Shown here piece by piece: positions 3,897 through 20,433 of a DNA stretch of 64,000 bases. Positions within the stretch are counted from its first letter, which is position 1; every line of letters starts with the position of its first letter. Source of the stretch: Ferruginibacter paludis (GTDB taxonomy: Bacteria; Bacteroidota; Bacteroidia; Chitinophagales; Chitinophagaceae); NCBI RefSeq assembly GCF_030409685.1, contig NZ_JAUFQJ010000003.1, positions 1-64,000 on the forward strand. Direction: 5' to 3'. The notes below the pieces were generated by a model. It saw only the letters and a list, made by a program, of their open reading frames with translations, was not told the DNA's origin and did no database searches. The position numbers were made by a program, and so were the translations under genes.

Positions 3897-3925
3897 TAGT
3901 ATTCACAAGCAACTTATCTGTATAA

Positions 3926-3970
3926 TGCAAGGGCCTGTTTAATTCGATTAAACAGGCCCTTGCATTTATT
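3926..3970. terminator. Bidirectional terminator between convergent genes
   Basis: A perfect 18-bp stem (3926-3943 with 3947-3964) around a 3-nt loop (tcg), with T-rich sequence on the right and A-rich on the left. It separates the plus-strand deacetylase gene from the minus-strand DJ-1/PfpI gene and can serve both. Confidence 0.9.
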
Positions 3971-6165: not shown

Positions 6166-6196
6166 GTACAAGGGTGCGACGCCCGTGCAGCTCCAC
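6166..6196 (-). repeat. Left half of the island-split dispersed repeat (attL side)
   Basis: Read on the minus strand, 6166-6182 matches the conserved end of the repeat at 25411-25463 in 15 of 17 positions. The match continues on the far side of the island at 20434-20454. The last 11 bases (6186-6196) are the att core. Confidence 0.7.
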
Positions 6197-6220
6197 TAAA
6201 ATCAATACCAAATTATGCTA

Positions 6221-6255
6221 AAAGCCTGCAAACTCAATGTTTGCGGGCTTTTTTC
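6221..6255 (+). terminator. Terminator just inside the left island end
   Basis: AAAGCC-t-GCAAAC pairs with GTTTGC-g-GGCTTTTTT (a 13-bp stem with one G-T pair) and is followed by T-rich DNA. Its place directly after the att core fits an attachment site whose inner arm restores the terminator of an RNA gene target. Confidence 0.85.
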
Positions 6256-6291
6256 ATTTTAGGGAATCACCAAAACGTACAGGAAAAAGCA

Positions 6292-6316
6292 AATTTCTGG
6301 TGAGTGATTCGGTGAG
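6292..6316 (+). repeat. 25-nt repeat also present near the right island end
   Basis: It matches 20335-20359 in 24 of 25 positions (core TGGTGAGTGATTCGGTGAG) and contains two GGTGAG units 12 nt apart. Part of it (6296-6305) is inverted at 6338-6347. Being shared by both ends, it is a candidate arm-type integrase binding site. Confidence 0.6.
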
Positions 6317-6373
6317 TAGGATCAATGTTGCAACATTACTCACCAGACTTGCCCAAACTCACTGACAATCAAC

Positions 6374-6392
6374 ATGTTCAAAATTTGAACAT
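6374..6392. promoter_or_regulatory. Perfect 19-nt dyad upstream of the integrase promoter
   Basis: ATGTTCAAA-a-TTTGAACAT is a perfect 9-bp inverted repeat with a one-base centre, placed directly upstream of the -33 region of the integrase promoter. A second perfect palindrome of 14 nt lies at 6324-6337. Both could be operators or recombinase sites. Confidence 0.5.
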
Positions 6393-6393
6393 C

Positions 6394-6424
6394 TTGTCTT
6401 GCTTCTGCTGCAATGCTAATTTTG
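6394..6424 (+). promoter_or_regulatory. Promoter of the truncated integrase gene
   Basis: TTG at 6394-6396 and TAATTTTG at 6417-6424, separated by 20 nt, fit the Bacteroidota -33/-7 consensus. The ATG follows 22 nt later. Confidence 0.6.
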
Positions 6425-6446
6425 TTAACCTAAAATGAGTAAAATC

Positions 6447-6605
6447 ATGAAGACAAATTTTAGCATGCTTTTTTACCTGAAAAAGCAGAAAAACTACACA
6501 TCAGGTACAGCACCAATTTATTTAAGAATTACAGTAGATGGGCAACGTGCAGAATTAACTGCCAACAGGGAATGTGAGCCTGAGTGGAAAACCCACGCAA
6601 ATTGA
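6447..6605 (+). pseudogene. Tyrosine-recombinase (site-specific integrase) N-terminal fragment
   Basis: The ATG at 6447 opens 52 codons (MKTNFSMLFYLKKQKNYTSG... PIYLRITVDGQRAEL... CEPEWKTHAN) and then a stop formed at the edge of the IS element. This is the start of the arm-type DNA-binding domain of Bacteroidota integrases (usual length about 400 aa). The SAM-like core-binding and catalytic domains are absent, and no remnant of them appears on the other side of the IS (after 9264). The gene was therefore cut and the rest lost, not merely split. Confidence 0.8.
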
Positions 6606-6760
6606 CCCCCTTCCGCCAAAACAAACTGACCCCCTCCGGCCATTTTAAATTGACCCCCTGATACCGGCTGAAATTGACCCCCTAAATCGTTGAATAAAGA
6701 GCAGTTGTTTTTGTAGGATAATAATCGGTTGTTTTAACCAAAACAACGGGAGATTATTTT

Positions 6761-8317
6761 ATGTCCAACAAAACAATTGATATGTTTAAAATCAGGCAAA
6801 TATTGCGACTTTATTCAGAAGGAAGAGGCAGTAAGTTCATCAGCAAAACAACAGGTACGGCACGCAACACGGTAAAGAAATACCTTCTGCAGTTTGTAGA
6901 GTTGCGGCTTACCATTGAGCGGGTAGAAATCATGACTGACGGGGAGTTAGCCAAAGCCTTTTTGATTGTAAAGCCAAAAAAAGAAAGCAGCCGTGTAGTT
7001 GATCTGGAAGCGTTGTTACCAGAGCTGACAGCCAGGTTAAAGAAACGTGGTGTGACCAAGCAAATGGTTTATGCCGACTACATCCGGCAGTGCCCTGATG
7101 GGTACAAGCACTCCGCTTTCCTGGTGCGCCTCAATACATTCATGGGCATGAGTAAGCCATCTATGCGTGTGCCTCACAAGGCCGGCGATAAACTCTTTAT
7201 TGATTTTACCGGAAAGCGTTTACAGGTAGTAGATATAAGCACCGGCGAGGTACAGGATGTAGAAGTTTTTGTAGCCATCCTGGGCTGCAGCCAGCTCACT
7301 TATGTAACAGCAGTAGCCTCTCAAAAGAAGGATGATTTTATATTGGCCTGCGAGCGGGCGCTGCATTTTTATGGCGGTGTACCCGAAGCCATTGTTCCTG
7401 ATAATTTAAAATCCGCGGTAAAAAAAGCCGGGCGGTATGAGTCGGAACTCAATGATAGTTTTGCCGCATTTGCAGCCCATTACAACACGTATGTTTTTCC
7501 TGCAAGGGTTTATAAGCCTAAAGATAAAGCGCTGGTAGAAGGGGCTGTAAAAATAATCTACACCAGCATCTTTACTAAAATAGATGAAAAGGTATACAGC
7601 AGCTTAGAAACGCTCAATGAGGATATTTTAATTTACCTGCTGGCCCACAACAGTACATTGCTTACGGGCTGTGATTATAGCAGGTTGCAGCAGTTTGACG
7701 CACTGGAAAAAAATGTTTTAAAACCGCTGAACAAATATCCCTATGACCCCATGACCAGCAAAACTGCCACGGTCGGTAAAACAGGTTACGTTACCGTCGA
7801 TTACCGTTATTACAGTATACCCTATAAATTTATTGGTATAAAAATCAAACTGATGTACAACTGTACAAAGGTGGAAGCATTTAGCGAGCATGAATTAATT
7901 GCTGTTCATGTTCGTTATTTTGGCAAAGACAAATACATACAAAACGAAGACCACCTTGCCTCCTGGCACCGCTATCCTACGGAATGGAACCCTGAAAAAT
8001 TTATTGCCGATGCCGCATTGATTGGTGAAGTAGTAGTAGCCTACATTAAAAAAGTATTGTCCCGAAACGAGTATCCCGAAAAAAATTACAGAGCCTGCCA
8101 GGGCATCATCAATTATAAAAAACGGGTAGGCGAAACAAGGCTTATCAACGCCTGCAAAAGAGCCGATAGCTTTAACGTGTACAACTTTGGAATGATAGAA
8201 CGCATACTAAAATCAAAAGCAGATTTTATTCCATTGGAAGATGAACAAAAACCTTCGGGCGATGACACCTGCATGCCCGTGCACGACAATATCCGGGGAG
8301 AAGATTACTATCAATAA
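6761..8317 (+). CDS. istA: IS21-family transposase IstA
   Basis: 518 residues, full length. An N-terminal helix-turn-helix (about 8-42, MFKIRQILRLYSEGRG and ARNTVKKYL) is followed by an rve-type DDE catalytic core: Asp148 in LFIDFTGK, Asp214 in IVPDNLKSA and Glu260 in KALVEGAVK, then a C-terminal beta domain. IstA makes the strand cuts and joins at the element's ends, with IstB as ATP-dependent helper. The reading frame is intact, so the element may still be active. It lies 43 nt upstream of istB. Confidence 0.96.
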   Translation: MSNKTIDMFKIRQILRLYSEGRGSKFISKTTGTARNTVKKYLLQFVELRLTIERVEIMTDGELAKAFLIVKPKKESSRVVDLEALLPELTARLKKRGVTKQMVYADYIRQCPDGYKHSAFLVRLNTFMGMSKPSMRVPHKAGDKLFIDFTGKRLQVVDISTGEVQDVEVFVAILGCSQLTYVTAVASQKKDDFILACERALHFYGGVPEAIVPDNLKSAVKKAGRYESELNDSFAAFAAHYNTYVFPARVYKPKDKALVEGAVKIIYTSIFTKIDEKVYSSLETLNEDILIYLLAHNSTLLTGCDYSRLQQFDALEKNVLKPLNKYPYDPMTSKTATVGKTGYVTVDYRYYSIPYKFIGIKIKLMYNCTKVEAFSEHELIAVHVRYFGKDKYIQNEDHLASWHRYPTEWNPEKFIADAALIGEVVVAYIKKVLSRNEYPEKNYRACQGIINYKKRVGETRLINACKRADSFNVYNFGMIERILKSKADFIPLEDEQKPSGDDTCMPVHDNIRGEDYYQ

Positions 8318-8360
8318 AATCAAACCACTTCATTTATTAACCAGTTAAAAAAACACAGCA

Positions 8361-9119
8361 ATGAACAAAGACAGTTTAGAAAAGATGAGTCACATGCGGC
8401 TGCTGGGTATGCACCAGGCCTACAAGGCCAGTCTGGAAGCAGATCAGCGCCAGCAACAGTTTACCAATGATGAACTGGTACAGTACCTGGTGCAAAGCGA
8501 ATGGGACGACAGGAAGCATCGAAGCGTACAAAGAGGGCTTAAGAACGCTAACTTCCGCTACAGTGCCAGTATCGAACAATTGGATTATTCCGGCGACCGC
8601 GGGTTAGATAAAAACATTGTACAACGTTTATCTACCTGCGATTTTATAAAAAAAGGCGAAGATCTTTTTATCACCGGCAGTACCGGAACGGGAAAAAGTT
8701 TTTTGGCATCTGCCCTGGGCCAGCAAGCTTGCTTAATGGGATATAAAATTTTGTACACTAACACTGCTAAATTAATGTCTCATTTAAAAATGGCCAAAGC
8801 GGATGGCGCCCATTTAAAAGAGCTTTCTAAAATAGAAAAACAGGATGCCCTTATCTTAGATGATTTTGGTGTACACCCCTTCGATGCAGGAAGCAGGGCT
8901 TTACTATTGGACATTATCGAAGACCGTCATGGCAAAAGATCTACCATCATCACCGCACAAGTACCTGTAAAAAAATGGCATGAAGTCATAGGAGAAAAAA
9001 CACTTGCTGATGCTATACTCGACAGGATTGTCCATCAATCTATCCGGATAGAATTATACGGTGAATCTTTAAGAAAAAAACAAAAAGGAAAAGCAGAACC
9101 AATGGAATCATATTTATAA
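8361..9119 (+). CDS. istB: IS21-family helper ATPase IstB
   Basis: 252 residues, a DnaC/DnaA-like AAA+ ATPase. Walker A is GSTGTGKS (106-113) and Walker B is DALILDDFG (162-170); an N-terminal helical region of about 85 residues matches the IstB-like family. It assembles on target DNA and stimulates IstA. The gene is intact and ends 145 nt before the right end of the IS. Confidence 0.96.
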   Translation: MNKDSLEKMSHMRLLGMHQAYKASLEADQRQQQFTNDELVQYLVQSEWDDRKHRSVQRGLKNANFRYSASIEQLDYSGDRGLDKNIVQRLSTCDFIKKGEDLFITGSTGTGKSFLASALGQQACLMGYKILYTNTAKLMSHLKMAKADGAHLKELSKIEKQDALILDDFGVHPFDAGSRALLLDIIEDRHGKRSTIITAQVPVKKWHEVIGEKTLADAILDRIVHQSIRIELYGESLRKKQKGKAEPMESYL

Positions 9120-9277
9120 AAAACGCCGGCAAAAATTAATCACTATTTTTAGCCTCCAAAACAACAGTTCTTTATCTTCTTTTTAGTCCTCTTCACCAGG
9201 ATTTTTTTAGGCCCTTTTGTAATCGCTTTTTAGGGGGTCAATTTAAAATGGCGGAAGGGGGTCAGTTTTGCTGGGAT

Positions 9278-9667
9278 TTACAGGTTACATTGTTCTGCTG
9301 ATAATATTGTAAGTACAAGCATCCAATCATTTTTATTAACCGGTTTATCTGCACAGCCACATGCCACGTTAGTGGAATCATGAGGCTTCAACAGTATTTG
9401 TTTCAATTGAATACTATCTTTTTCGGGAAACTCATAAACTAACTTAAAATTTGCTTTGACATCGAAATCGCTATCGTTTATTGCCACAAAAGTTAATGAT
9501 GAATTGCAGTCCAAATTGCAATCAGAATAATTATACGTATCTACACGAAGATTTCGCGTAGTGGTTGAACCAATAAGTTTACGATTCTTTTTGCAACTAG
9601 AAAGAGTGATAAAACAGGTAATGGAAAACATTGCTATACCACCAAAAAAAAGGAGACGAATTTTCAT
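9278..9667 (-). CDS. Small hypothetical lipoprotein, last gene of the island operon
   Basis: 129 residues with a lipoprotein signal (hydrophobic 5-24, lipobox LSSC with Cys25). The mature part is rich in Cys (DCNLDCNSS, VACGCAD, EQCNL) and looks like one small beta domain; no family is recognised. Its start overlaps the stop of the preceding gene by the 4-nt ATGA, so translation is probably coupled. The stop lies only 13 nt from the IS21 right end and no terminator is present, so downstream operon genes may have been lost in the deletion next to the IS. Confidence 0.8.
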   Translation of the reverse strand: MKIRLLFFGGIAMFSITCFITLSSCKKNRKLIGSTTTRNLRVDTYNYSDCNLDCNSSLTFVAINDSDFDVKANFKLVYEFPEKDSIQLKQILLKPHDSTNVACGCADKPVNKNDWMLVLTILSAEQCNL

Positions 9668-10185
9668 TTTATTTCAATTATTAGGTTTTTATCGGGACAT
9701 GAATTAGGGAACTCAGTTCCGTAAAAAGCAATCCTTAGTTTAAAGAGTGGATGTTCTTTATCAATGAAAACAGATTGATCAGCCGATTTATTTGCCGGAC
9801 CAAGTAGTATGCATCCTTTAGAATGTTGAGGTTTATTTCCTGCATGCAAAAGAATATCACTTCTGCCAGGTACATCTTTCATTTCAAGAAGAAAGTCTCC
9901 TGATTTTGACAACGAACCTAATTCCGACTGAACAAAGTTTTTTCCGGAATGGTATCTCATGTTTCCAGAGTATTTCCCGGTTGGAATTTTTAGATCATTG
10001 TTTTCATAGCAGTTGCCAAGTAGTTTATTATCTAAAAATATTTGGCCCATTACGAGATTGTTTTCTACTTTACCTCTGACAATTAAAATATTGAAATCCG
10101 TTGCTGGCAACCATTCTGATTTCTTTGAAGCTGAAACCATAATAAAAGAAAGTAGTACAAAGACCAAACTTATTTTCCTTTTCAT
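9664..10185 (-). CDS. Secreted DUF5675-like protein with L,D-transpeptidase-type Cys motif
   Basis: 173 residues with an N-terminal signal peptide (about 1-20). The centre (GRSDILLHAGNKPQHSKGCI, 107-126) carries His114 and Cys125 in the spacing H-x6-S-x-G-C of DUF5675 proteins, which resembles the catalytic His/Cys signature of YkuD-type L,D-transpeptidases. I infer an envelope enzyme or binding protein acting on peptidoglycan or a peptide, but activity is unproven. It lies 24 nt after the giant lipoprotein gene and overlaps the next gene by 4 nt, so it belongs to the same operon. Confidence 0.75.
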   Translation of the reverse strand: MKRKISLVFVLLSFIMVSASKKSEWLPATDFNILIVRGKVENNLVMGQIFLDNKLLGNCYENNDLKIPTGKYSGNMRYHSGKNFVQSELGSLSKSGDFLLEMKDVPGRSDILLHAGNKPQHSKGCILLGPANKSADQSVFIDKEHPLFKLRIAFYGTEFPNSCPDKNLIIEIK

Positions 10186-10209
10186 ATTATTAGTTTTGTT
10201 TAAAGGTGT

Positions 10210-13200
10210 TTACTTATATATTGTTTTGATGCCCGATTTATTAAATAATGCCAAAGGATTAATGACGCTATTCACTTTCTTTCCGTCAGACTTAAATGCA
10301 GAAAGAATAAATGTCGCCAATGTTTTAAACTGTTCTTCCAATAGATTGCTTTCACGAATACGTGGAATATTACTCAGGTTTTCGTCGATCACTGCCTGGC
10401 TCATAGCATTTTTTAAATTCTCTTCAAATAAACTTCGTTCAATCGTCTTTTCTGTTTTAATCTTTTTGCCGTCTTTGTCGTCGATCAGGAGTAAAACGTC
10501 TTTAGATGTCTTAACAAATGCCAGTAATTGTCGTACATGATTTTCTGTTTCCATGAAATCTATTGCAACATTTGCGCTGCTGTCTGTAATCAGAAGGTTG
10601 AATAGACGGTCAAAAAATACCTGGTGATTAGCAATAACTGTCGGGAAGTTGAAAAAATCCCCTCTGTTTCCTTCTAATGAAAAGAATCCGGCTGGATAAA
10701 GAAGTTCTTTTTGCACAAAAGGTTTCATGGAGTTTTGGTTATCCAATAAATATAGATGCGATGGCGAAGCCAAGCTGATCCATCCAGCCCTGTTTTTATC
10801 TGCGGCAAAAAGTATTTTATTTTGCAACGTGCCGGAACTATAGAGAAAGCTTAGCAAACTTCCAAGCAGTGGGTTTTCTATAAACGTTGACTTCGTTACT
10901 GGTTTTTCTACTATGCCTAAAGCCCGACTCAGATCATTCTCGGTGAAATTGATGGTTTTGATACTTTTTTCATTTCCTACAACAAAGAAGGTCTTCCATT
11001 TATCTCCTTCGGGAGAAGTAATAGGAGTGACACGCACACTTGTATCCAATTTAATCACGTTACAGAAATAATCATCAGATATTGGTTTGTTTGCAATTTT
11101 CAGGTTTGCATAATCAACGAATTTATAAACTGCCGATCTTTCAACATTTCCATCTTTTATGTGTGATCTCAATGCTTGCAATATGTTTGATGCAGGCACT
11201 TCTGTTTCGCATGAAGAAATAATCTGAAAGAGCGAAGCGGCATCCAGATCCACCACTATCTTGTTGGTGAATTCAATATAATCTTTAAAATAATCTGATC
11301 CTATCTCAGCAACCGCTATGGGAGTGTCGGATTCTTCTGCAATCCAATATTCTTCATTCCCAATTTGAATTATGTAAATGAAGAGTTCACTTGAAAAGTC
11401 TCTGAACGCTATTTGTCCGTAAGCATAAGGGTAGTCGGTAGATAAATTTGTTTTCTTCTTTTCTTCTACATATTCAACTTTACCCTGATTGAATACCCTG
11501 CGATATGCGTTAGTTATAAAACAAGGCGGGTGATTATGACCGTTGCCTGCAGTGCTGGTAATAGAAGTTGCTGCAACTGATTTCTCGGTCTGTGCAGTTG
11601 CCATTTGAAAATTTAAATGATAAAGATCGTCATAATCTACTACGTGTTTTGTTTGATACAGCCAAGATAGTGATTTGGACGTCTTATTGCAATCTGCAGT
11701 GAGAAGGAAATTGTAAAATGACGATGCAGTTACCAAAAATGCCTTGGCTTCATTGTCGTTGTAAGCAAGAATAAAATTATATGCAGGAAATGCCAATTCG
11801 TTTGTAATAATGCTGTTTCCGCCAATACTGTAAGTTTTAGGATCGACAGTTGATCGTGTGAGGTTCAAGCAAAATTTATCAGACATTTTAAAATCATCAA
11901 TGCCTTCTTTTGCTGGCAGCAGAGCTGATAGTGAATAGTTAGTTTTATTGTCTAATAACATATTTGCAGCCGAGAATCCTAGAATAACGCATTCCCCTTT
12001 TGCCAATTGATAATACCCGCTCTGTTCATTTCTACTAGGATACTTCAAAACAAAGCTGACCGACTTTTCATTTTTCACAACTTTGAAATCAAAAGGCAAC
12101 CTTTGCGGTTCATTGCTATTATTTAAATAGATAAAACAGTAATAGGAAGAAAAATCCAATCCCGGATTGCATGCACTTACATAAGTGCGATAATCTTTCA
12201 AGGGAACGCAGAGCTTATTACTGATGGCAATATAAACTGATTCTTCTTTTCTCGAAAGATCGTTATACCTCACGAAAGTGTATCCAATATCGCTATTACC
12301 ATCCATGTTTGCTATTTCTATTTCCGATGATAATTTTCCGGATACTCCCGTTTTGTTACGGTCTTTTTCATTACTTGGTTTATTTGAATTATTTCCTCCT
12401 GGCCTTCCACCACCGGGTTTATCGTTGTCACCATTGTTGCCACCGAGATTTCCACCTAGGTTGCCTCCAGGATTTCCATCTGCATTGCCATCAAGACCAC
12501 CTTCCTTGTCATTAAATTCCCGAGAGTCATTACCCTCCGGACCACCACCCAATGACAAATCCATCTTAGGAAGATTCAAAAGCGCTTTGGCAAGTTCTTC
12601 GGGACTTAACATTCGTTTCAAAAGCTTAATAATCTCATCCCTTATATAGGTAACCGATATTGCATCCACTCCGGGGAAGTGTAACGTAAGACCTAATCCC
12701 ATCACATAGAAATGAACTTCTGCAAAGTGTTCATTTGCTTCTATGGAGAATTTACTCAAATCGAATCCGCACAGTGTAACATCTCCACCTACTTTCATGA
12801 ATGGATCTTTGATAAAACCTTGTAGGGGCGAATAAACAAAGGAAGTTCCAACAGAGCCTGTCAATGTCCCTACCGGCAAACCGAACCTTCCAGTACCTGA
12901 AAGTTTAATAGCCTCTGAAAGCGTATCAATGGCTCCGGTTACATCTAGGGCTCCAGTTGCCACATGCAGCAAGTCTACGGTTCCAATAGTGCTAAAGCTA
13001 TAATCACCATTCGGCGTTTTTCCGAATCGTGTGGTCTTATCTAATTTCAAAATCTTTTGCGCCATGCCGGTAGTTCCTTCAGACAAAGTCACTTCTGCTT
13101 CGGGTATTATGGTGATAACACCTCTACTTTTGTTAAGTGGGAAAAAACTCACCAATATCAAATCACCGTTGTAATCTACTTTGCCAATATCTTTTTTGCT

Positions 13201-16200
13201 GTAGGGGATATTGAAATCACCTTTTATTTTTACAAGCTTGGCGATGCCTCTAACACTTTGGTCAATACCCATGCTAAAGTCGCCTTTAAAAGACAGTTCT
13301 TTGTTGTCAAGATCAAGTATGATTGTTGGATCTATAAGTGAACAATAAGGAGGGGCAATTGGTACAATAATTGGAACAGTTAAAGAAGGTTTGAAATCGA
13401 AATCTATTTTGTTTTCTCTCAGAGTGAACTTTACAGTAGGCAACTTTATCTGATCCCAAATTTTAATATCGGCAGTTCCGCTAATAGTATGCGCTTTAAA
13501 ATCTATAGGATTTATTTTAATAGCGTTTTCATCATCCATTAGTGCCGCAAATAGGTTCTGCAATAATATACCAGCAATCTGGCCTTCAAGATTTTTGGGT
13601 TGATTGATATCGATCTTGCCCGTTGCATAATCAATTTCAATCGGTACGTCTACATTAATGTCACCATGAAAGACCATTTTCCCATTAAGTGTCAGTTTAT
13701 GCGTTAATAGATCAATTCCTGCAACAGATAGTTCCATATCCGCATAATCAGCAATCTTTACTTTGCCTTTAAAATCTGCGAAATATTTTGTTATTACATT
13801 TAAAGCAGCGGTCTGTAAATCTTTCAACTCAGTTCTTGAGTCAATAGCACTGGTCTGGGTGTTTATCGTTATTGTATGAATGATGCCATCAAAATTAATT
13901 TCGGTGATTTTTAAACGGGCGCGAATGATAATTTCATCTGTAACATCGGCTTCGAATATCACTTTGTCTTTTAACCCGACTGTTTCATTTAATTGCTTTA
14001 TCAATAAATCAGCAATTTGCTTTTTATCTGCACTGACTACTTTAAATTGATCATTTTCCCTGATAAACTTGAGTGCGATGTCTTCATATCTGGCTACGCC
14101 TTCAACTTTTCCAGATACGCAATTAATTTGTACAACCTTGAATGGTAAACCAAAAGAAGGCAACACAGAATTGTTTAATGATTCACACGTCCGTCTGAGC
14201 GCTTCCTGACCGGCTTTGATTACCGCTTTCTCAGCCGCTGTCCTCGAATAATCAATCAATATATCCTTATAGTTACGCACGTAATTTGTTGCAACTTCTT
14301 TTATCACAGCCAACATTTCCGGTAAAGTCTTAAACAAATAAGACTTTCCTTCGCACATAAGTTTGAAACTTTTATCCTCAAGATTGAATTCAAAAGAAGA
14401 AATATTCAATACAGCTGCGGCGTGTGTTACAACACCAGGCACACTTTCGGAAAGGACATCCGTTATTTTTGTTATTTCGCTTTGAAGTTCTGTTTTTATT
14501 TTATCTCTCAATGACGGCAATGCATCAACGAGCGAAATCCTTGACATGGTTAACTGTGCTTCGTTCTGCAATAGACTATAACCAAATCGGATTGTCACAT
14601 GGGGCACATTGACGTTAAGAATTGGGAAACGGACATTTTCTAATTGTAATTTTCCGCTGATGTATTCGTTGTTCTTCGAAAACGGGTCGAGTGTGAAATT
14701 GTAAACCCGTTCTGAATTAAAAAAAGTTTTCAGTTGATTTAGTTTGCTGTCGTTCGCTGCTGTTTTTATTTGTTCCCAGATTTTTGTAATGGCGGCTTCA
14801 CGAAGAGCTGCACGAAATTCTTCCGGATTTCGACTTAATAAATCATCGAGTGTTACAGAAAACGATGTGAGCGTTGGATCATTATTGAATATTTGCTCAA
14901 AGAAAGACTGAGGAGTCCAGCTAATACCAAAACTGATTTGCCAGGTGTCAGGATCAATTATCAGCCTTTTCAAGTTTACACCCAATACAACAGGCAAAGA
15001 TAGCAGTTGATTTGCTCCCTGTAAGGTAGAAGCATCGTAAGTAAACTGATTCCAGATTCCCTTTTTGGGTAATTGGATTCCGATACTGATACTAGGGTCT
15101 GAAGCTTTTAAAATATATGATTGATTTGCTGGCATTTCCTTCGATAGATTAATATCTCTTATGGTCAATCCCAAGGGGATCTCTGTTATGAGTTTACCAG
15201 CTTTTCCATTTAAATCGGTGATCTTCTGGTCTTGAGTCATCTTTTCAAATTCAGGCTCCTCTTCGCCAGCTATCCAGTAAACAATACTGGCACTCGCTTC
15301 GGTAAACTCAATTTTTTTATCAATCGACAAACGCCCAAAAGTTCCTTTCTTAAAACGCAAACGCACAAAATATTTAGACGCGGCTGATCGCATTACATCA
15401 ACATAGTCTCCTTCCCCCGGAATTATTTTGGAAGCGAGATAATCATTTTTTGCGCGAAAATCCTCCAGTGCATTGGCGACATTTTGCACAGCTGGATTTA
15501 ATTCTTTGTATTTGTTATTAAGATCCTCTATTGTCGTCCGCAACCCTTCGCATTGTTTTAATAAAGCCGTTCTTTTCGCAAATCGCTCAGCATAGGTTTT
15601 AGTAAATTCCGGATCGGTTGCTTTAATATTGAAGTTCTTTGCTTCGTCAGGATTTGCAGAGGGATAAAAAGAAACCGCAAACAAGCTTTGATAATCTTTA
15701 AAGCTTGCGATGATTTCTTTAACCTTCGAAGAACTGTTTCCTATTCTGTCAAGAAGTTCAGTTTTCCCGGAGGCGAGTATTGGTTGAAAACACTGAATAA
15801 GAATTTCATCTTTTCTCAGTTCAATGTATTTTTCTACAATCGTCTCAGCGGTAATGGCGTCTTCTGAAAGAATATCGCTCAACTTCGGAGCCATCACTTC
15901 AAAGGCATACAAAACTCTTAAGAAAAGATTTCGTTCCAGTTGAAAGCTTTCATTTTTTTGATTGTCGAACTGGTTTGTAAATTCTGCTATTTGCTCTTTT
16001 GCTTTTACAAACTGATCTTTTAATGCAGGAGAAAGCAATTCTTCCAATTTGCCTTTTTGAATAGCCTCAAGTGCTACGTCTTTTTTTTCTGCCGCGATTT
16101 GTAAAGAGTATAGAATTTCCTTGAAAACCCTGCTTGAATTAGGTGCGGCAACTATATTGATATCGAAGATATCTGCACCTTCACTGTTCCAGTCAAAACG

Positions 16201-16386
16201 TTCGTGAGTAAAAGCAGTATCAAAATAGTAAAGCAATTTATCATTCAGCTCCGATACTTGGGCTATCTCGTCATGCGACCATGCATGGGGATTTAAGTTT
16301 TCATCCGTCACGACTGTGGTATTGTCGTTGCACCTGGTAAGATGAGCAATAACGAGAATTGCAAGGAGAATCCGGCTCCATGCCAT
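10210..16386 (-). CDS. Giant predicted lipoprotein (about 2058 aa) of the motor-like operon
   Basis: The start chosen is the ATG at 16386, 4 nt after the stop of the preceding gene, giving MAWSRILLAILVIAHLTRC, a lipoprotein-like signal with a weak lipobox (LTRC, Cys19). An ATG at 16413 would overlap that gene by 23 nt. Layout: mostly helical region about 25-330 with a likely coiled coil near 260-320; a long beta-rich region about 330-1270 made of repeated amphipathic strands (SGTGRFGLPVGTLTGSVGT, LTLNGKMVFHGDINVDVPI), reminiscent of AsmA/lipid-transfer-type repeats but not a clear match; a Gly/Asn/Asp-rich linker about 1275-1344 (GGNLGGNLGGNNGDN); and a C-terminal region of about 700 residues with no known family. 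It probably spans the periplasm as the load or partner of the upstream motor subunits. Confidence 0.8.
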   Translation of the reverse strand: MAWSRILLAILVIAHLTRCNDNTTVVTDENLNPHAWSHDEIAQVSELNDKLLYYFDTAFTHERFDWNSEGADIFDINIVAAPNSSRVFKEILYSLQIAAEKKDVALEAIQKGKLEELLSPALKDQFVKAKEQIAEFTNQFDNQKNESFQLERNLFLRVLYAFEVMAPKLSDILSEDAITAETIVEKYIELRKDEILIQCFQPILASGKTELLDRIGNSSSKVKEIIASFKDYQSLFAVSFYPSANPDEAKNFNIKATDPEFTKTYAERFAKRTALLKQCEGLRTTIEDLNNKYKELNPAVQNVANALEDFRAKNDYLASKIIPGEGDYVDVMRSAASKYFVRLRFKKGTFGRLSIDKKIEFTEASASIVYWIAGEEEPEFEKMTQDQKITDLNGKAGKLITEIPLGLTIRDINLSKEMPANQSYILKASDPSISIGIQLPKKGIWNQFTYDASTLQGANQLLSLPVVLGVNLKRLIIDPDTWQISFGISWTPQSFFEQIFNNDPTLTSFSVTLDDLLSRNPEEFRAALREAAITKIWEQIKTAANDSKLNQLKTFFNSERVYNFTLDPFSKNNEYISGKLQLENVRFPILNVNVPHVTIRFGYSLLQNEAQLTMSRISLVDALPSLRDKIKTELQSEITKITDVLSESVPGVVTHAAAVLNISSFEFNLEDKSFKLMCEGKSYLFKTLPEMLAVIKEVATNYVRNYKDILIDYSRTAAEKAVIKAGQEALRRTCESLNNSVLPSFGLPFKVVQINCVSGKVEGVARYEDIALKFIRENDQFKVVSADKKQIADLLIKQLNETVGLKDKVIFEADVTDEIIIRARLKITEINFDGIIHTITINTQTSAIDSRTELKDLQTAALNVITKYFADFKGKVKIADYADMELSVAGIDLLTHKLTLNGKMVFHGDINVDVPIEIDYATGKIDINQPKNLEGQIAGILLQNLFAALMDDENAIKINPIDFKAHTISGTADIKIWDQIKLPTVKFTLRENKIDFDFKPSLTVPIIVPIAPPYCSLIDPTIILDLDNKELSFKGDFSMGIDQSVRGIAKLVKIKGDFNIPYSKKDIGKVDYNGDLILVSFFPLNKSRGVITIIPEAEVTLSEGTTGMAQKILKLDKTTRFGKTPNGDYSFSTIGTVDLLHVATGALDVTGAIDTLSEAIKLSGTGRFGLPVGTLTGSVGTSFVYSPLQGFIKDPFMKVGGDVTLCGFDLSKFSIEANEHFAEVHFYVMGLGLTLHFPGVDAISVTYIRDEIIKLLKRMLSPEELAKALLNLPKMDLSLGGGPEGNDSREFNDKEGGLDGNADGNPGGNLGGNLGGNNGDNDKPGGGRPGGNNSNKPSNEKDRNKTGVSGKLSSEIEIANMDGNSDIGYTFVRYNDLSRKEESVYIAISNKLCVPLKDYRTYVSACNPGLDFSSYYCFIYLNNSNEPQRLPFDFKVVKNEKSVSFVLKYPSRNEQSGYYQLAKGECVILGFSAANMLLDNKTNYSLSALLPAKEGIDDFKMSDKFCLNLTRSTVDPKTYSIGGNSIITNELAFPAYNFILAYNDNEAKAFLVTASSFYNFLLTADCNKTSKSLSWLYQTKHVVDYDDLYHLNFQMATAQTEKSVAATSITSTAGNGHNHPPCFITNAYRRVFNQGKVEYVEEKKKTNLSTDYPYAYGQIAFRDFSSELFIYIIQIGNEEYWIAEESDTPIAVAEIGSDYFKDYIEFTNKIVVDLDAASLFQIISSCETEVPASNILQALRSHIKDGNVERSAVYKFVDYANLKIANKPISDDYFCNVIKLDTSVRVTPITSPEGDKWKTFFVVGNEKSIKTINFTENDLSRALGIVEKPVTKSTFIENPLLGSLLSFLYSSGTLQNKILFAADKNRAGWISLASPSHLYLLDNQNSMKPFVQKELLYPAGFFSLEGNRGDFFNFPTVIANHQVFFDRLFNLLITDSSANVAIDFMETENHVRQLLAFVKTSKDVLLLIDDKDGKKIKTEKTIERSLFEENLKNAMSQAVIDENLSNIPRIRESNLLEEQFKTLATFILSAFKSDGKKVNSVINPLALFNKSGIKTIYK

Positions 16387-16390
16387 TTTT

Positions 16391-16987
16391 CTATTGTGAC
16401 TCAGGAACATCAATTTTAAAATTTATTGTTGAGTAATTGCCTAAAGTGACCCACTTATGAACAACAGTATCAGAAAGCATATGGGGCAGTCTCCAACTAT
16501 GAATAACTTCAATAGAATCGTTGATATTAAATGAATCATCATTTTTGATCCCTGAATTATCGTAATATAACACACCAATTATCCATGGCCCCCCCTTCTG
16601 TATGGTGGAGAATACATTAAATTGATTCGGCGTTTTACCTTGATCGCTGTATTCGGTAACTGGTCCCCAGATAAGAAGTTTACCAACTTTTTTTTCACCA
16701 GACTTGTCTGCATTTTTTAAAAAGAAGTTTGTGTCTGTAATGGCGCCTATGCTACTTTGGCTTTCCACCCATTGGCTTGTTTCACCGGATTTGACTATTA
16801 TGTTGAAGTGTGCGCCCGTATCCGGACTTGAAACTCTATAGTGTATGAATTCGCGGGGAATACCGGCTTGTTTTGCTATCGCTTTTCCTTTGTTAACCGA
16901 AAGCACCATCATTAATATAATTGAGCTACCCAGCGCCGTTGCGAGTAGATCGATAAATATCAATATTCGAAGATTGCTTCCACGCAT
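16391..16987 (-). CDS. ExbD/MotB-like single-pass subunit B
   Basis: 198 residues: a very short cytoplasmic N-terminus, one transmembrane helix (about 8-31, FIDLLATALGSSIILMMVL) with Asp13 at the ExbD/MotB position, then a predicted periplasmic beta domain of about 165 residues. ExbD, TolR and MotB use this Asp to carry ions through the channel formed with ExbB, TolQ or MotA. The periplasmic part lacks an OmpA-type peptidoglycan-binding domain. It is 8 nt from the preceding, different ExbD-like gene and directly before the giant lipoprotein gene. The family call rests on topology, motif and context. Confidence 0.72.
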   Translation of the reverse strand: MRGSNLRILIFIDLLATALGSSIILMMVLSVNKGKAIAKQAGIPREFIHYRVSSPDTGAHFNIIVKSGETSQWVESQSSIGAITDTNFFLKNADKSGEKKVGKLLIWGPVTEYSDQGKTPNQFNVFSTIQKGGPWIIGVLYYDNSGIKNDDSFNINDSIEVIHSWRLPHMLSDTVVHKWVTLGNYSTINFKIDVPESQ

Positions 16988-16995
16988 AATTATAT

Positions 16996-17652
16996 CTATT
17001 GTGTATCGATTTTTACTAGTTTATCGAGATCCGCCAACTTTCCGATGTCTATGTGTATTTTAAGTTTATTGATATTTTGCACCCTGGTCGGCGGAACATT
17101 AAAAAGACCAGGAAAATTATCTCGTTGTGAGCTTCCTTCAATAATCATAACCTCTACTATCGGTTTATCTCCGGGATCTTGGCTTTCCAGTGAACCTCCC
17201 ATATCCCCCGGTATTTCAAAGTCGATGGGTAGCATGCCATTGGCAGTGATAATAAAAGAAATTCCATTCGGTTCTTCTTTAATTTGGAACCTTAATGATT
17301 CAGAAAGATCTTCTCGATTATCAGGTATTGATATAGTCCAGAAACTTTTTACGTTGTCACTTTTTGCGCGAATAATACCAAGATTATCTGGACTAAGATT
17401 GGAGATTTTCACAATCCTGATAGCGCCCATTGATTTTGACTTTCCATCATCACCCATCATTGACGACATATTTGCAAACTGACCATCGCTATTGGCATTA
17501 TCAGCCTGCTGCATTTGACCAACAGAGTTTCCTATAATTTTTATCGAAAAAATAAAAAACAAGATGATGCAACCGCCCAATCCGCAAGCAAGAAGATCCA
17601 CAATCAGCGATTCTACATCGAGCTTTTCAATGGCCTCGTCCTTAACTTTCAT
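16996..17652 (-). CDS. ExbD/MotB-like single-pass subunit A
   Basis: 218 residues: cytoplasmic N-terminus of about 16, one transmembrane helix (about 17-40, LIVDLLACGLGGCIILFFIF) with Asp19 in the VDLL motif of ExbD-type proteins, then a periplasmic domain with a polar Gln/Asn/Ser linker (about 46-75) and a beta-rich part. It overlaps the upstream ExbB-like gene by 11 nt. Sequence outside the helix is unlike subunit B, so the two are not a recent duplication and could form a heterodimeric rotor inside one ExbB-like ring (inference). Confidence 0.74.
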   Translation of the reverse strand: MKVKDEAIEKLDVESLIVDLLACGLGGCIILFFIFSIKIIGNSVGQMQQADNANSDGQFANMSSMMGDDGKSKSMGAIRIVKISNLSPDNLGIIRAKSDNVKSFWTISIPDNREDLSESLRFQIKEEPNGISFIITANGMLPIDFEIPGDMGGSLESQDPGDKPIVEVMIIEGSSQRDNFPGLFNVPPTRVQNINKLKIHIDIGKLADLDKLVKIDTQ

Positions 17653-18847
17653 TCCAGGTTACATTTTTATATTTTAAGATCAATTCCGTGGTAAGCAAAA
17701 GCATTAGCAGTATCAAACCAACAAGTGTTGACGTAAATGCAACACCCATTGTTTCAGATACAGAAGACACAGCCAGTGCCTGATTGATCTGCGTATTTGC
17801 CCGGACAATAGTATCAGCTTTACCAAGCGCTTCACTTAAGCCTCTTTTTGTTCCAATGAAGCCTAATGATGGAAGTGCGATTAATACCCATCTGTAGAGG
17901 ATCAGTGAATATTTTTCGACATTGGTTAAAGAAGGTTCTGACTTATTAATGTTTGTCAATGATGCTTTGTATTGAGCCGCTGCTGGGTTGCTGCGAATAA
18001 TCTTCATATTTTGAATCAGTAACAATAAGCCTATACAGAATACTATATACATAAAGAATTGCTCTGGCCCTTCAAGAACTGTAAACCAATTTTTCGCAGA
18101 ACTTACTTTTGGATCGTCATGAATGGAGACAAGCATTCGTTGGAAGTACTCACTTACTTGTCTGTATGATTCAACGGGTGTTATTCCTTTGCCGTCTGGG
18201 TCGCCAAGAGGGAGATTATCATATTTTTCTGCTATGCGTGAATTCAGAAAAAGAAGATTTACAATCTCCGATTGATCTGAGGCTTTTCCCCAAAGCCCTC
18301 CTAATTGTTTTGGGAAAAGAAAGGAAAGAAAATTTTCATGGTAATCGGGAAGTTTATCAATTGAAGACCCTACAGCATCGCCATAAACTTTAAAGGCATT
18401 CGGCCCTCCAGCTAGGCAAGCAGCAATAAGATTCTCTAGGTTATCTTTAAATTCTTGAGCCTGATTTTTACTTCCGACCATTTCCGATACCCTGATAAGA
18501 TGCTGAATGGTGGTGGTGGTCTGAAAAGTTTCCTTTTCGGCAATTATTGCCTGTTGCATTTGAGCGGAAACATTGTCTGTTGTAGTTTCCCAACTCAATA
18601 TTCCCATGTTTACAAACATCCGCCAGGGTAGTTTATCGTCGATTTTCCTATTGGCAGTATTATGATCTTTTGCAACAAAACGCTTAGAGCCGAAAGAAGG
18701 ATCGCGATTAAAAATTATTTCGGTAAATTTTGATTGTCTGATCTTGCTCTTAAGATTAAAGTAAGACAAAGAGATCAGGGTAAAGTGAACAAGTACACCC
18801 AATAAAAAACCGGCCATAACGATTTTTATAAAAACAGGAAGTTTCAT
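17642..18847 (-). CDS. MotA/TolQ/ExbB-like proton-channel protein with extra periplasmic domain
   Basis: 401 residues. Predicted membrane segments: 9-29, 264-283, 317-335 and 367-391. The last three match the ExbB/TolQ/MotA core: LPSLGFIGTKRGLSEAL aligns with the GLLGTVxGM signature and MGVAFTSTLVGLIL with the final channel helix and its Thr/Ser residues. Unlike ordinary ExbB, an extra N-terminal helix and a domain of about 230 residues (30-260, predicted outside) precede the core. It is the first gene of the six-gene operon. Role inferred: the stator ring of an ion-driven motor working with the two ExbD-like proteins downstream. Confidence 0.85.
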   Translation of the reverse strand: MKLPVFIKIVMAGFLLGVLVHFTLISLSYFNLKSKIRQSKFTEIIFNRDPSFGSKRFVAKDHNTANRKIDDKLPWRMFVNMGILSWETTTDNVSAQMQQAIIAEKETFQTTTTIQHLIRVSEMVGSKNQAQEFKDNLENLIAACLAGGPNAFKVYGDAVGSSIDKLPDYHENFLSFLFPKQLGGLWGKASDQSEIVNLLFLNSRIAEKYDNLPLGDPDGKGITPVESYRQVSEYFQRMLVSIHDDPKVSSAKNWFTVLEGPEQFFMYIVFCIGLLLLIQNMKIIRSNPAAAQYKASLTNINKSEPSLTNVEKYSLILYRWVLIALPSLGFIGTKRGLSEALGKADTIVRANTQINQALAVSSVSETMGVAFTSTLVGLILLMLLLTTELILKYKNVTWNES

Positions 18848-19780
18848 TTAATAGATTTAGGGATGTGTACGAAAACTTAAATTATCAAGCCAACTGTATG
18901 GTAATTTTCGGGGGGAACAAATTAGCTGGCGAACTATAAGAATTCAAAAGATAAAATAAATCGGTGGAATAAAAAAGAATAATTTTTTCACTAATTTTTT
19001 TGCGAATCGTAATTGCAGGGGATGCTGCTTGAATCCATCAGAGCACCAAACTAGGATTTAACTTTCGGTTTTTCCTAATGATAACTGATCATTTTGATAT
19101 CTGCAAGTGTGATATTTATGATTGTTTTTTCAAAATTGCTACTTTCTGTTCGTGAGTACCAAGAAAAAGAGTATGCTTACTAACAAATAGTATCAAGTAC
19201 TACAGAACATTTGCCTTAAAGAACTTGCTCGATATTTTTGTGTTTTTTGATTGGTTTCTTGAAGTTTTTCATCCTGAACCGAAAAAAATTGGGAAAACAG
19301 TGGGAGGTCAGTTGATTTCTAAAAGACGATGGAAAAGCAAGAAGAAATGGCTTTGTCAATGGTTAAATTATGAGAGGCTTTGCAATTGATTTTGTTTTCA
19401 TAGTTGCTTAAATATGGAATCTCAGAATTGATTTGCTTAGTTTTAACTTGGATGAGGGATGTGGATACTTGAAGGGTATTTATTCGGACATTTTACATTC
19501 TCACTTTTGAAAAAGATCATAAGGGAAGAACTTACGGTTAGAAAACTGAACCCGCCCTGTTCGCGTTAATTTGGTTAAAACCCGGACTGTAATGTTATTA
19601 CTAAATAGCAAATATTTAGATTGTTAATTAACAGTACTGAAGTTATGAAGCAGAAATGACTGTATAAGTTTGTTGTTAACTATAATTTTTATTAGAATGA
19701 TTTTAAAACTTAAAGCAGTTATCAATTATTCTGGTAACTTGTATTGTAATTTATTTATATTTAATTTTTAACCGTTTGTT
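18848..19780. other. AT-rich gene-poor stretch upstream of the operon
   Basis: About 930 bases without a convincing gene on either strand. A stop-free stretch of 77 codons on the plus strand (19156-19386, ending NYERLCN) has no ATG and no recognisable family; it may be a decayed gene. The promoter of the six-gene operon should lie near 18850-19050, but no exact TAnnTTTG box is seen on the minus strand there. Confidence 0.5.
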
Positions 19781-20212
19781 ATGATTAAGCCATTACTTAT
19801 TTTTTTCGCAATTCTGTCAATAAGTGTTCATTTTGTCACAGCGCAGAAATATACTCCTCTAGTCCCTTCAATGCGGCCTGCGGCTCCTGGAGCTACGACA
19901 AATGTACCTAACTATGGGGGATTATTAATAACCATCCAGAATGAAATTTTGCAATGGGCTAATAATAACTGTCAGGAATTGATTAATAAACAAGTTTCAG
20001 ATAATTTAGAAAAAGAGAGAAGTACGGTAAAGAAAATGACAACATATCTTGTCGTGGTAAATATTACTGACAAAATGAAGTGTGTGGTTGAGACTTTTAG
20101 AGCTTTGAAAACCAATGAAGATCCCTCAATAATTCATGATGACAAGACTAAATACCTAGTGTATACTCTTGATATTTACCCTTGGATTATTTATAAGAAT
20201 AAACGCTATTAG
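19781..20212 (+). CDS. Small secreted hypothetical protein on the island
   Basis: 143 residues with a clear signal peptide (MIKPLLIFFAILSISVHFV, cut after TA-Q near residue 21). The mature part has a Pro-rich start (SMRPAAPGATTNVPNY), a helical middle and a C-terminus ending in basic and aromatic residues. No family is recognised. It is transcribed away from the six-gene operon and is the last gene before the right island end; it may be a partner or immunity-type factor, but nothing in the sequence proves that. Confidence 0.65.
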   Translation: MIKPLLIFFAILSISVHFVTAQKYTPLVPSMRPAAPGATTNVPNYGGLLITIQNEILQWANNNCQELINKQVSDNLEKERSTVKKMTTYLVVVNITDKMKCVVETFRALKTNEDPSIIHDDKTKYLVYTLDIYPWIIYKNKRY

Positions 20213-20334
20213 AATAAATCAAAGTTATTGCTACTTAAGCTCATCCTAGGAGATTACACGTTTCAAGAATTTCCTTAATTAAATTTTCAATGTTGCTTAT
20301 CTTGTGGTCTAGCTTTGCAGCTAAAAGCAACAAT

Positions 20335-20359
20335 AATTTTTGGTGAGTGATTCGGTGAG
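20335..20359 (+). repeat. Right-end copy of the 25-nt island repeat
   Basis: It is identical to 6292-6316 except for one base and lies 64 nt inside the right att core. It is in the same orientation as the left copy. Confidence 0.6.
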
Positions 20360-20408
20360 CAGAAGTTTAAAACCGATCTAAAATATTGATTTTGTAAGTG
20401 ATATAGGT

Positions 20409-20433
20409 AGGGTTCGATTCCCTGCAGCTCCAC
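20409..20433 (+). other. tmRNA-3'-end-like attachment sequence at the right island end
   Basis: AGGGTTCGATTCCCT (20409-20423) forms a T-arm stem-loop with a canonical TTCGATT loop and runs directly into GCAGCTCCAC, which matches the acceptor strand of bacterial tmRNA. No tmRNA body lies upstream, so this is a fragment carried by the element (its attP arm), not an RNA gene. Confidence 0.6.

Follow-up and report, generated by a model that had tools for sequence, protein, structure and literature searches.

The 64,000-nucleotide window analyzed here (positions 1 to 64,000 of contig NZ_JAUFQJ010000003.1 of Ferruginibacter paludis) carries, at 9278–18847 on the minus strand, an operon of six genes that very probably encodes a motor of the ExbBD/TolQR/MotAB superfamily. 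Its first four genes, which encode a membrane subunit (B), two ExbD-like subunits (D1 and D2) and a giant exported protein, are conserved in the same order in three genomes, and in F. paludis the operon makes up most of the cargo of a mobile island. The operon is thus real, conserved and mobile, is not described in the libraries and literature that we searched, and represents a variant of the ion-motor kind. Motors of this superfamily are known to drive flagella, gliding, secretion, nutrient uptake and envelope upkeep and, in the case of Zorya, phage defence. Taken as a whole, our tentative reading is that of an ion-driven inner-membrane motor, carried as island cargo, that acts outward on the giant protein for defence of the envelope.

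The six open reading frames (ORFs), all of them open, make up a single unit. In the order of transcription they encode B (17642–18847; 401 residues, with a MotA/TolQ/ExbB-type core at about residues 315–387 as judged from Pfam, hydropathy and homologs); D1 (16996–17652; 218 residues) and D2 (16391–16987; 198 residues, distinct from D1), both ExbD-like by their homologs and neither matched by a Pfam family; the giant (10210–16386; 2058 residues from an ATG at 16386, or 10210–16413 and 2067 residues from an alternative TTG start); an exported DUF5675 protein (9664–10185; 173 residues); and a small lipoprotein with an LSSC lipobox (9278–9667; 129 residues), the 3′ end of which is truncated by an IS21 insertion sequence. 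From B to the lipoprotein, consecutive genes are separated by an overlap of 11 nucleotides, a gap of 8, a gap of 4 (to the ATG start of the giant), a gap of 24 and an overlap of 4, in agreement with an earlier, sequence-only reading of the window that had described tight packing into one unit (overlaps of 11 and 4 nucleotides and gaps of 4–24).

An alignment of three B sequences was scanned against 84,980 species genomes, in which at least 594 stretches matched, and the best 80 of 535 relatives were kept; further cassettes may exist beyond these 80. One of the loci (L027), from Agaribacillus aureus (Bacteroidota, Cytophagales), matches B over residues 2–393 and contains genes for B, D1, D2, a giant of ~2097 residues and an enzyme, in the same order as in the window. 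A search of 146 relatives of A. aureus with the giants revealed another genome, G1370, in which genes for B, D1, D2 and a giant of 2078 residues again follow one another in the same order, and no further cassette was detected in 59 relatives of G1370. A. aureus and G1370 are genomes with the same gene order, of the kind that the sequence-only reading had proposed to collect. Among the three operons the pairwise identity of B is 30.3, 30.5 and 23.7%, that of D1 is 28–31% (two pairs), that of D2 is 24–33% (two pairs) and that of the giants is 22–27%. Eleven homologous pairs had E values below 0.01 when scaled to a 20-Mb database, and shuffled sequences gave no match at the same limit. The D1 pair and the D2 pair of the window and G1370 lay above this limit, the links between the D subunits running through A. 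aureus. Recurrence of the operon beyond chance is confirmed, because four genes have their order and strand in common with two other genomes and because 11 homologous pairs stand against none with shuffled copies.

The giant was found in one of 395 genomes of the phylum and, with profile A4, in one of 395 genomes of the class, in each case as its own match, and it had a single match, itself, within its own genome. No giant was seen in the plasmids, phages and genome contigs searched, and no copy of the cassette was found in searches of plasmids, phages and viral contigs. B likewise matched only itself among 294 genomes of the family (E ≤ 0.001); with the own genome counted, it gave five matches in 98 relatives (E ≤ 0.001) and matched in 7 of 395 phylum genomes (E ≤ 0.01). 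Two matches to B in genome G478 were dropped, one because a stop interrupts its frame and the other because its ORF resembles an ABC permease; the others cover the membrane core only. A match to the giants in genome G1369, which spanned 118 model positions in a transporter-like ORF of 594 residues, was dropped as well. Of the 79 loci other than L027 among the best 80 of 535 relatives, 69 were mapped and 10 were left out; of the 69, only L028, to which we return below, has a neighbour of more than 900 residues within reach.

The sequence-only reading had assigned an ExbB-type core to B. The match of window B to MotA_ExbB itself falls below the Pfam cut-off (E 0.0022; 18.2 bits against 22.9), but three relatives exceed it (27.5, 26.7 and 28.5 bits), and it is on this account that we place B in the core family; over 383 residues window B is 30% identical to a relative that passes the cut-off. 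The B proteins of the window, A. aureus and G1370 each have four hydrophobic segments as judged from hydropathy. In the three homologs the first loop, between segments 1 and 2, comprises 238, 238 and 241 residues (238 in the window), the stretch between segments 2 and 3 comprises 30, 25 and 12 residues (30 in the window), and the C-terminal tail comprises 16, 20 and 11 residues (16 in the window). Invariant in 17 B sequences are Pro326, Gly329-Phe330, Gly332-Thr333, Ala370-Phe371 and Thr374; threonines of this sort line the pore of ExbB. We oriented the segments by the topology of ExbB: provided that the pore helices are segments 3 and 4, as the match to the core implies, the loop of ~240 residues would be periplasmic and B would have almost no cytosolic part. 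No Pfam family matched this loop in the window or in the relatives scanned. In a search of solved structures the B profile matched MotA at an E value of only 0.18–0.2, and P0001 used alone gave no match.

D1 and D2 each have a single N-terminal hydrophobic segment, with an Asp that is invariant in the three homologs (Asp19 in D1 and Asp13 in D2), as anticipated for two single-pass ExbD-type proteins with a membrane Asp. Neither protein of the window matched ExbD in Pfam. Since no cross-match between D1 and D2 was detected at the E 0.01 limit when the three operons were compared, they are two separate conserved subunits. ExbD-like proteins from other operons have a membrane segment to which that of D2 can be aligned (hhalign E 2.3e-5), and a search of solved structures with the D2 profile gave no useful match.

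The giant of the window belongs to no family in Pfam, NCBIfam or PADLOC. Read by eye, the giants of all three genomes begin with hydrophobic stretches that resemble signal peptides, in keeping with the earlier proposal that the giant and its partners are exported. The accompanying description of the giant as a lipoprotein is doubtful, because the window protein reads LTRC, with the Cys at the lipobox position preceded by Arg, and because the two homologous giants (P0007 and P0009), also read by eye, have no Cys at that position; in the family as a whole, the giant is unlikely to be a lipoprotein. A Gly/Asn-rich linker lies near residues 1300–1370 of the window giant, the middle of which is rich in amphipathic-beta pattern. 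A search of solved structures with the giant profile gave no useful match.

The fifth gene, which the sequence-only reading had described as a Cys/His DUF5675-like protein, does belong to DUF5675 (Pfam E 2e-14), and to this we add a His...Ser-x-Gly-Cys motif that we take to be L,D-transpeptidase-like. The protein is thus a predicted L,D-transpeptidase-like enzyme. Its match to Tlde1_dom is below the cut-off (E 0.11) whereas that of the A. aureus enzyme is above it (E 3.1e-7), and His114, Ser122, Gly124 and Cys125 of the window enzyme are common to both. The direct similarity of the two enzymes lies above the E 0.01 limit, their link consisting of the family matches and shared residues; an enzyme gene of this type is counted in two of the three operons. 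A search of solved structures with the enzyme profile gave no useful match. DUF5675 is named in two papers on phage genomes, as far as the parts consulted go. Neither of the other two operons was found to encode the small lipoprotein. Its earlier assignment stands, with the LSSC lipobox, for a gene that proved to be truncated: its TAA stop codon (9280–9278) sits within the end of the IS21 element and is supplied by it.

The placement of the operon on an island, also proposed earlier, is borne out. The island is ~14.2 kb long (6186–20433) and is bounded by repeats of the end of transfer-messenger RNA (tmRNA). The sequence TGCAGCTCCAC, which is the 3′ end of the genome's tmRNA (the intact copy is on contig C7), occurs on the plus strand at the left end (6186–6196) and at the right end (20423–20433), there within a longer stretch that resembles the tmRNA 3′ end; positions 20409–20423 match the Rfam tmRNA model at 11.1 bits, below the cut-off. 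Within the window, the first ten bases of TGCAGCTCCAC are present on either strand only at the two island ends. Just inside these ends are direct repeats of 28 nucleotides (6292–6319 and 20335–20362, plus strand, 93% identical) that may be integrase arm sites. The left part of the island holds the 5′ remnant of an integrase gene (6447–6584, plus strand; Arm-DNA-bind_5 E 5.2e-8, 48 residues scanned), which is broken by an IS21-like element (6585–9282, plus strand; istA 6761–8317 and istB 8361–9119, IstB E 4.9e-65) with imperfect inverted ends that abuts the operon. The two flanks of the element show no matching target-site duplication, and the remainder of the integrase gene was therefore probably lost with a deletion. 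The sole other intact cargo gene that we saw encodes an exported protein of 143 residues without a family match (19781–20212, plus strand). The chromosome outside the island carries genes for DJ-1/PfpI, Smr-domain, amino-acid permease, polyprenyl synthetase and RNase R-like proteins. Besides the intact tmRNA on C7, the genome (G000) contains 13 weaker tmRNA matches (on C21 and other contigs), of which the short ones at model positions 346–363 or 348–362 may mark other islands at the same type of site.

No named system with this gene set was found in Pfam, NCBIfam, PADLOC or the open-licence literature of PubMed Central, as the sequence-only reading had suspected. One comparison is with Zorya, in which, according to the part of PMC11890865 consulted, ZorA has a long tail in the cytoplasm, ZorB binds peptidoglycan and the effectors are soluble. 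Like Zorya, the operon combines a MotA-type membrane core with a single-pass partner and is found on islands, and the ZorA2 profile of PADLOC weakly matches the core of two relatives (4.9e-4 and 0.014), with no match in the window. Unlike ZorA, however, B has a tail of only 11–20 residues; there are two D subunits, in which no OmpA-like peptidoglycan-binding domain was found (Pfam and PADLOC for all three operons, and NCBIfam also for the window); the partners are exported; and no ZorC/D, ZorE or ZorF/G effector was detected by PADLOC in the window operon or the neighbours scanned. Three defining features of Zorya are thus lacking, among them the two by which the earlier reading had set the operon apart from it, cytosolic effectors and a ZorB that binds peptidoglycan through an OmpA-like domain. 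The operon also resembles the Ton and Tol-Pal systems (ExbBD-TonB and TolQRA) in having an ion-driven core that would act on periplasmic and outer-membrane partners, but differs from them in its two distinct D subunits, its giant exported protein and the large extra loop of B; no Pfam match to TonB, TolA, TolB or Pal was seen in the six window proteins or the core proteins of relatives. GldL and GldM families were absent from the Pfam and NCBIfam matches of the window proteins. Finally, according to the part of PMC12505986 consulted, the A subunit of generic ion transporters can carry, on an Exb/Tol scaffold, additional domains of unknown function at its N terminus (such as DUF3450 and DUF2341), and a B subunit with an added domain would therefore represent a known kind of variation; the ~240-residue loop differs from these in having no Pfam family, and the set of partners differs as well.

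Outside the cassette, the phylum sequences most similar to the core belong to ExbB/ExbD-like pairs linked to kinase, FHA or PP2C genes, which have the same D membrane motif. In nine neighbourhoods of core matches, read by eye, kinase, FHA or PP2C-like genes lie beside the ExbB-like gene, and eight of the nine also have an ExbD-like gene or a contig end where one might come next. These pairs differ from the cassette in their cytosolic signalling neighbours, in having no giant and in having 137–149 residues between segments (two measured). As a separate observation, loci L007–L010, L022–L026 and L029, with ExbB/ExbD-like pairs by Ser/Thr kinase, FHA and PP2C-like genes, resemble a signalling-linked motor family, and some of their ExbD-like proteins end in a VWA-like or beta-sandwich-like domain.

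Locus L028 (also L129), from a metagenome-assembled genome of Spirochaetes, has a B core that is 44% identical over 73 residues, a stretch of ~212 residues before the third B segment, and an adjoining ExbD-like gene and gene for a 2667-residue signal-bearing protein. The latter has WD40-like repeats, and we rejected it as a homolog of the cassette giants, there being no detectable similarity; the gene order differs too, and the contig extends no further than the first ExbD-like gene. In Spirochaetes this giant matched 9 of 208 genomes, namely itself and eight that match only its WD40-like residues 207–487. L028 may be a parallel system of motor plus giant.

How might the cassette work? Given its long loop and minimal cytosolic part, B should work outward, unlike Zorya, and action on the periplasmic side is likely. 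In the mechanism that we propose, B subunits would form the usual ring (of five, by analogy) round one D1 and one D2, and ions passing the Asp residues of D1 and D2 would turn or move a two-part D1/D2 axle. The periplasmic heads of D1 and D2, together with the loops of B, would grip the giant and set it in motion between the two membranes, and the L,D-transpeptidase-like enzyme, where present, may remodel or anchor the peptidoglycan around it. The likeliest use would be as a horizontally acquired defence at the level of the envelope, for example against the entry of phage DNA or another attack on the envelope, although we put a use in defence at somewhat less than an even chance. The fullest version of this picture is a mobile trans-envelope machine for defence or transfer, with an inside-out ExbB-type ring whose soluble mass is mostly periplasmic, a D1/D2 axle and an exported moving part of ~230 kDa, the outward counterpart of Zorya; in all its detail it is unlikely. 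More generally, a conserved and mobile motor in which B has given up its cytosolic part in favour of a large one in the periplasm, with two different axle subunits and a giant exported partner, would be a new use of trans-envelope ion flow. The set is also compact and testable, offering a pair of Asp residues, a single question of topology and one giant protein to work on.

The idea of an envelope-based defence, raised by the sequence-only reading along with the suggestion that neighbours might be enriched in defence islands, draws on the context of the A. aureus locus. There, DarT (7.9e-62) and DarG (1.4e-124) genes end 2.6 kb before B, an integrase gene lies before DarT at the same end of the locus, and beyond the enzyme gene, at a distance of 2.2 kb, a DruE-like gene (4.9e-92) starts, after which come DpdE/DrmD-like (3.6e-163) and DrmMI-like (3.4e-82) genes; the cassette therefore sits between DarTG and Druantia/DISARM-like genes. 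This context, however, is seen at one of the three loci. Ten neighbours scanned with PADLOC in the window gave matches that we read as non-defence only; among them IstB matched DrmD (2.9e-27) and the amino-acid permease matched a CRISPR-candidate model (9.4e-15), neither of which was taken as defence. NCBIfam and PADLOC gave nothing above chance level for the window set.

Several findings weigh against our overall reading. PADLOC detected no defence gene in 10 flanking proteins of the G1370 operon, and the only defence family of PADLOC that matched the system's own proteins was ZorA, weakly and at the MotA core. No enzyme of the L,D-transpeptidase type was found by Pfam among the next three genes of the G1370 operon, and three genomes are few. 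The structure predictions suggested by the earlier note were run with limited yield: the B model is poor (mean predicted local distance difference test score, pLDDT, 57.5, with block means of 76–88 only at residues 321–390), and no ExbB or MotA structure was among its Foldseek matches, while the model of the giant (pLDDT 34.9) is unusable for its fold.

The main rival is ion-driven transfer of lipids or glycolipids, in which the giant would be a long groove protein between the membranes and B, D1 and D2 the motor that powers it; AsmA/TamB-type proteins are thought to carry lipids between membranes in such a fashion. In all three giants, residues 801–1400 are richest in amphipathic-beta pattern (0.29–0.57 of positions per 200-residue block, compared with at most 0.25 per block outside residues 401–1400), the low-confidence model of the giant alternates helices with sheets, and a weak internal repeat reaches a probability of 9.1%, against 2.2% for the best of equally many shuffled comparisons. 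Yet no lipid-transfer family of Pfam matched any of the three giants, the model is the unusable one just mentioned, and a patchy, mobile distribution would be unusual for envelope biogenesis; we regard this explanation as rather unlikely. Alternatively, the motor could propel the giant as far as the outer membrane or across it for export, surface display or contact-dependent competition, much as GldLM powers type 9 secretion and gliding. The giant does lie beside a motor and a peptidoglycan enzyme that shares His, Ser, Gly and Cys with Tlde1/L,D-transpeptidase enzymes, and the nearest curated family includes Tlde1, a type VI secretion system effector family by the title of PMC9638812, the part of which consulted describes an altered LD-transpeptidase fold. 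The window enzyme, however, falls in DUF5675 with its Tlde1 match below threshold, and neither Pfam nor NCBIfam revealed a gene in the operons for an outer-membrane channel, a secretion system or immunity, which leaves this explanation improbable.

Less probable again is a sensor or regulator related to the kinase/FHA/PP2C-linked pairs, in which ion flow would signal the state of the envelope. Such pairs supply the closest phylum sequences outside the cassette, and their ExbD-like proteins match D2 in its membrane segment, but the similarity is confined to the membrane core, the three cassettes contain no kinase, FHA or phosphatase gene, and the cytosolic part of B would consist of 12–30 residues and a short tail. 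We give equally little weight to a function for the mobile element itself, such as excluding other elements or aiding transfer. In the window, the integrase-bearing island carries almost nothing besides the operon, and in A. aureus too an integrase is nearby, whereas no plasmid, phage or viral-contig copy was found and inspection by eye of the ORFs round the G1370 operon, for which no profile search was made, revealed no integrase. Our preferred reading remains outward action of the motor on the giant, tentatively in envelope defence.

Finally, we note some minor observations. About 5.7 kb upstream of the G1370 operon, on the same strand, is a gene for a TPR-like protein that ends in an OmpA-like domain (L132, 2673–4628). 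A PADLOC match to ZorB (2e-9) in the flank of this operon reflects an OmpA-like domain shared with ZorB and was not taken as defence. Also near the G1370 operon (L126, 1–2629) are tandem, similar ORFs for exported lipoprotein-like proteins of ~195–210 residues. Among the 69 mapped loci, which include L028 and L029, many gammaproteobacterial ones (in the range L030–L106) have an ExbB-like ORF of ~266 residues, with ORFs of ~450, ~365 and ~330 residues after it and ORFs of ~800 residues before it, in a recurring order. In the window itself, a perfect 20-bp inverted repeat with a 3-nucleotide loop (3924–3966), resembling a terminator, lies downstream of a polysaccharide deacetylase gene.

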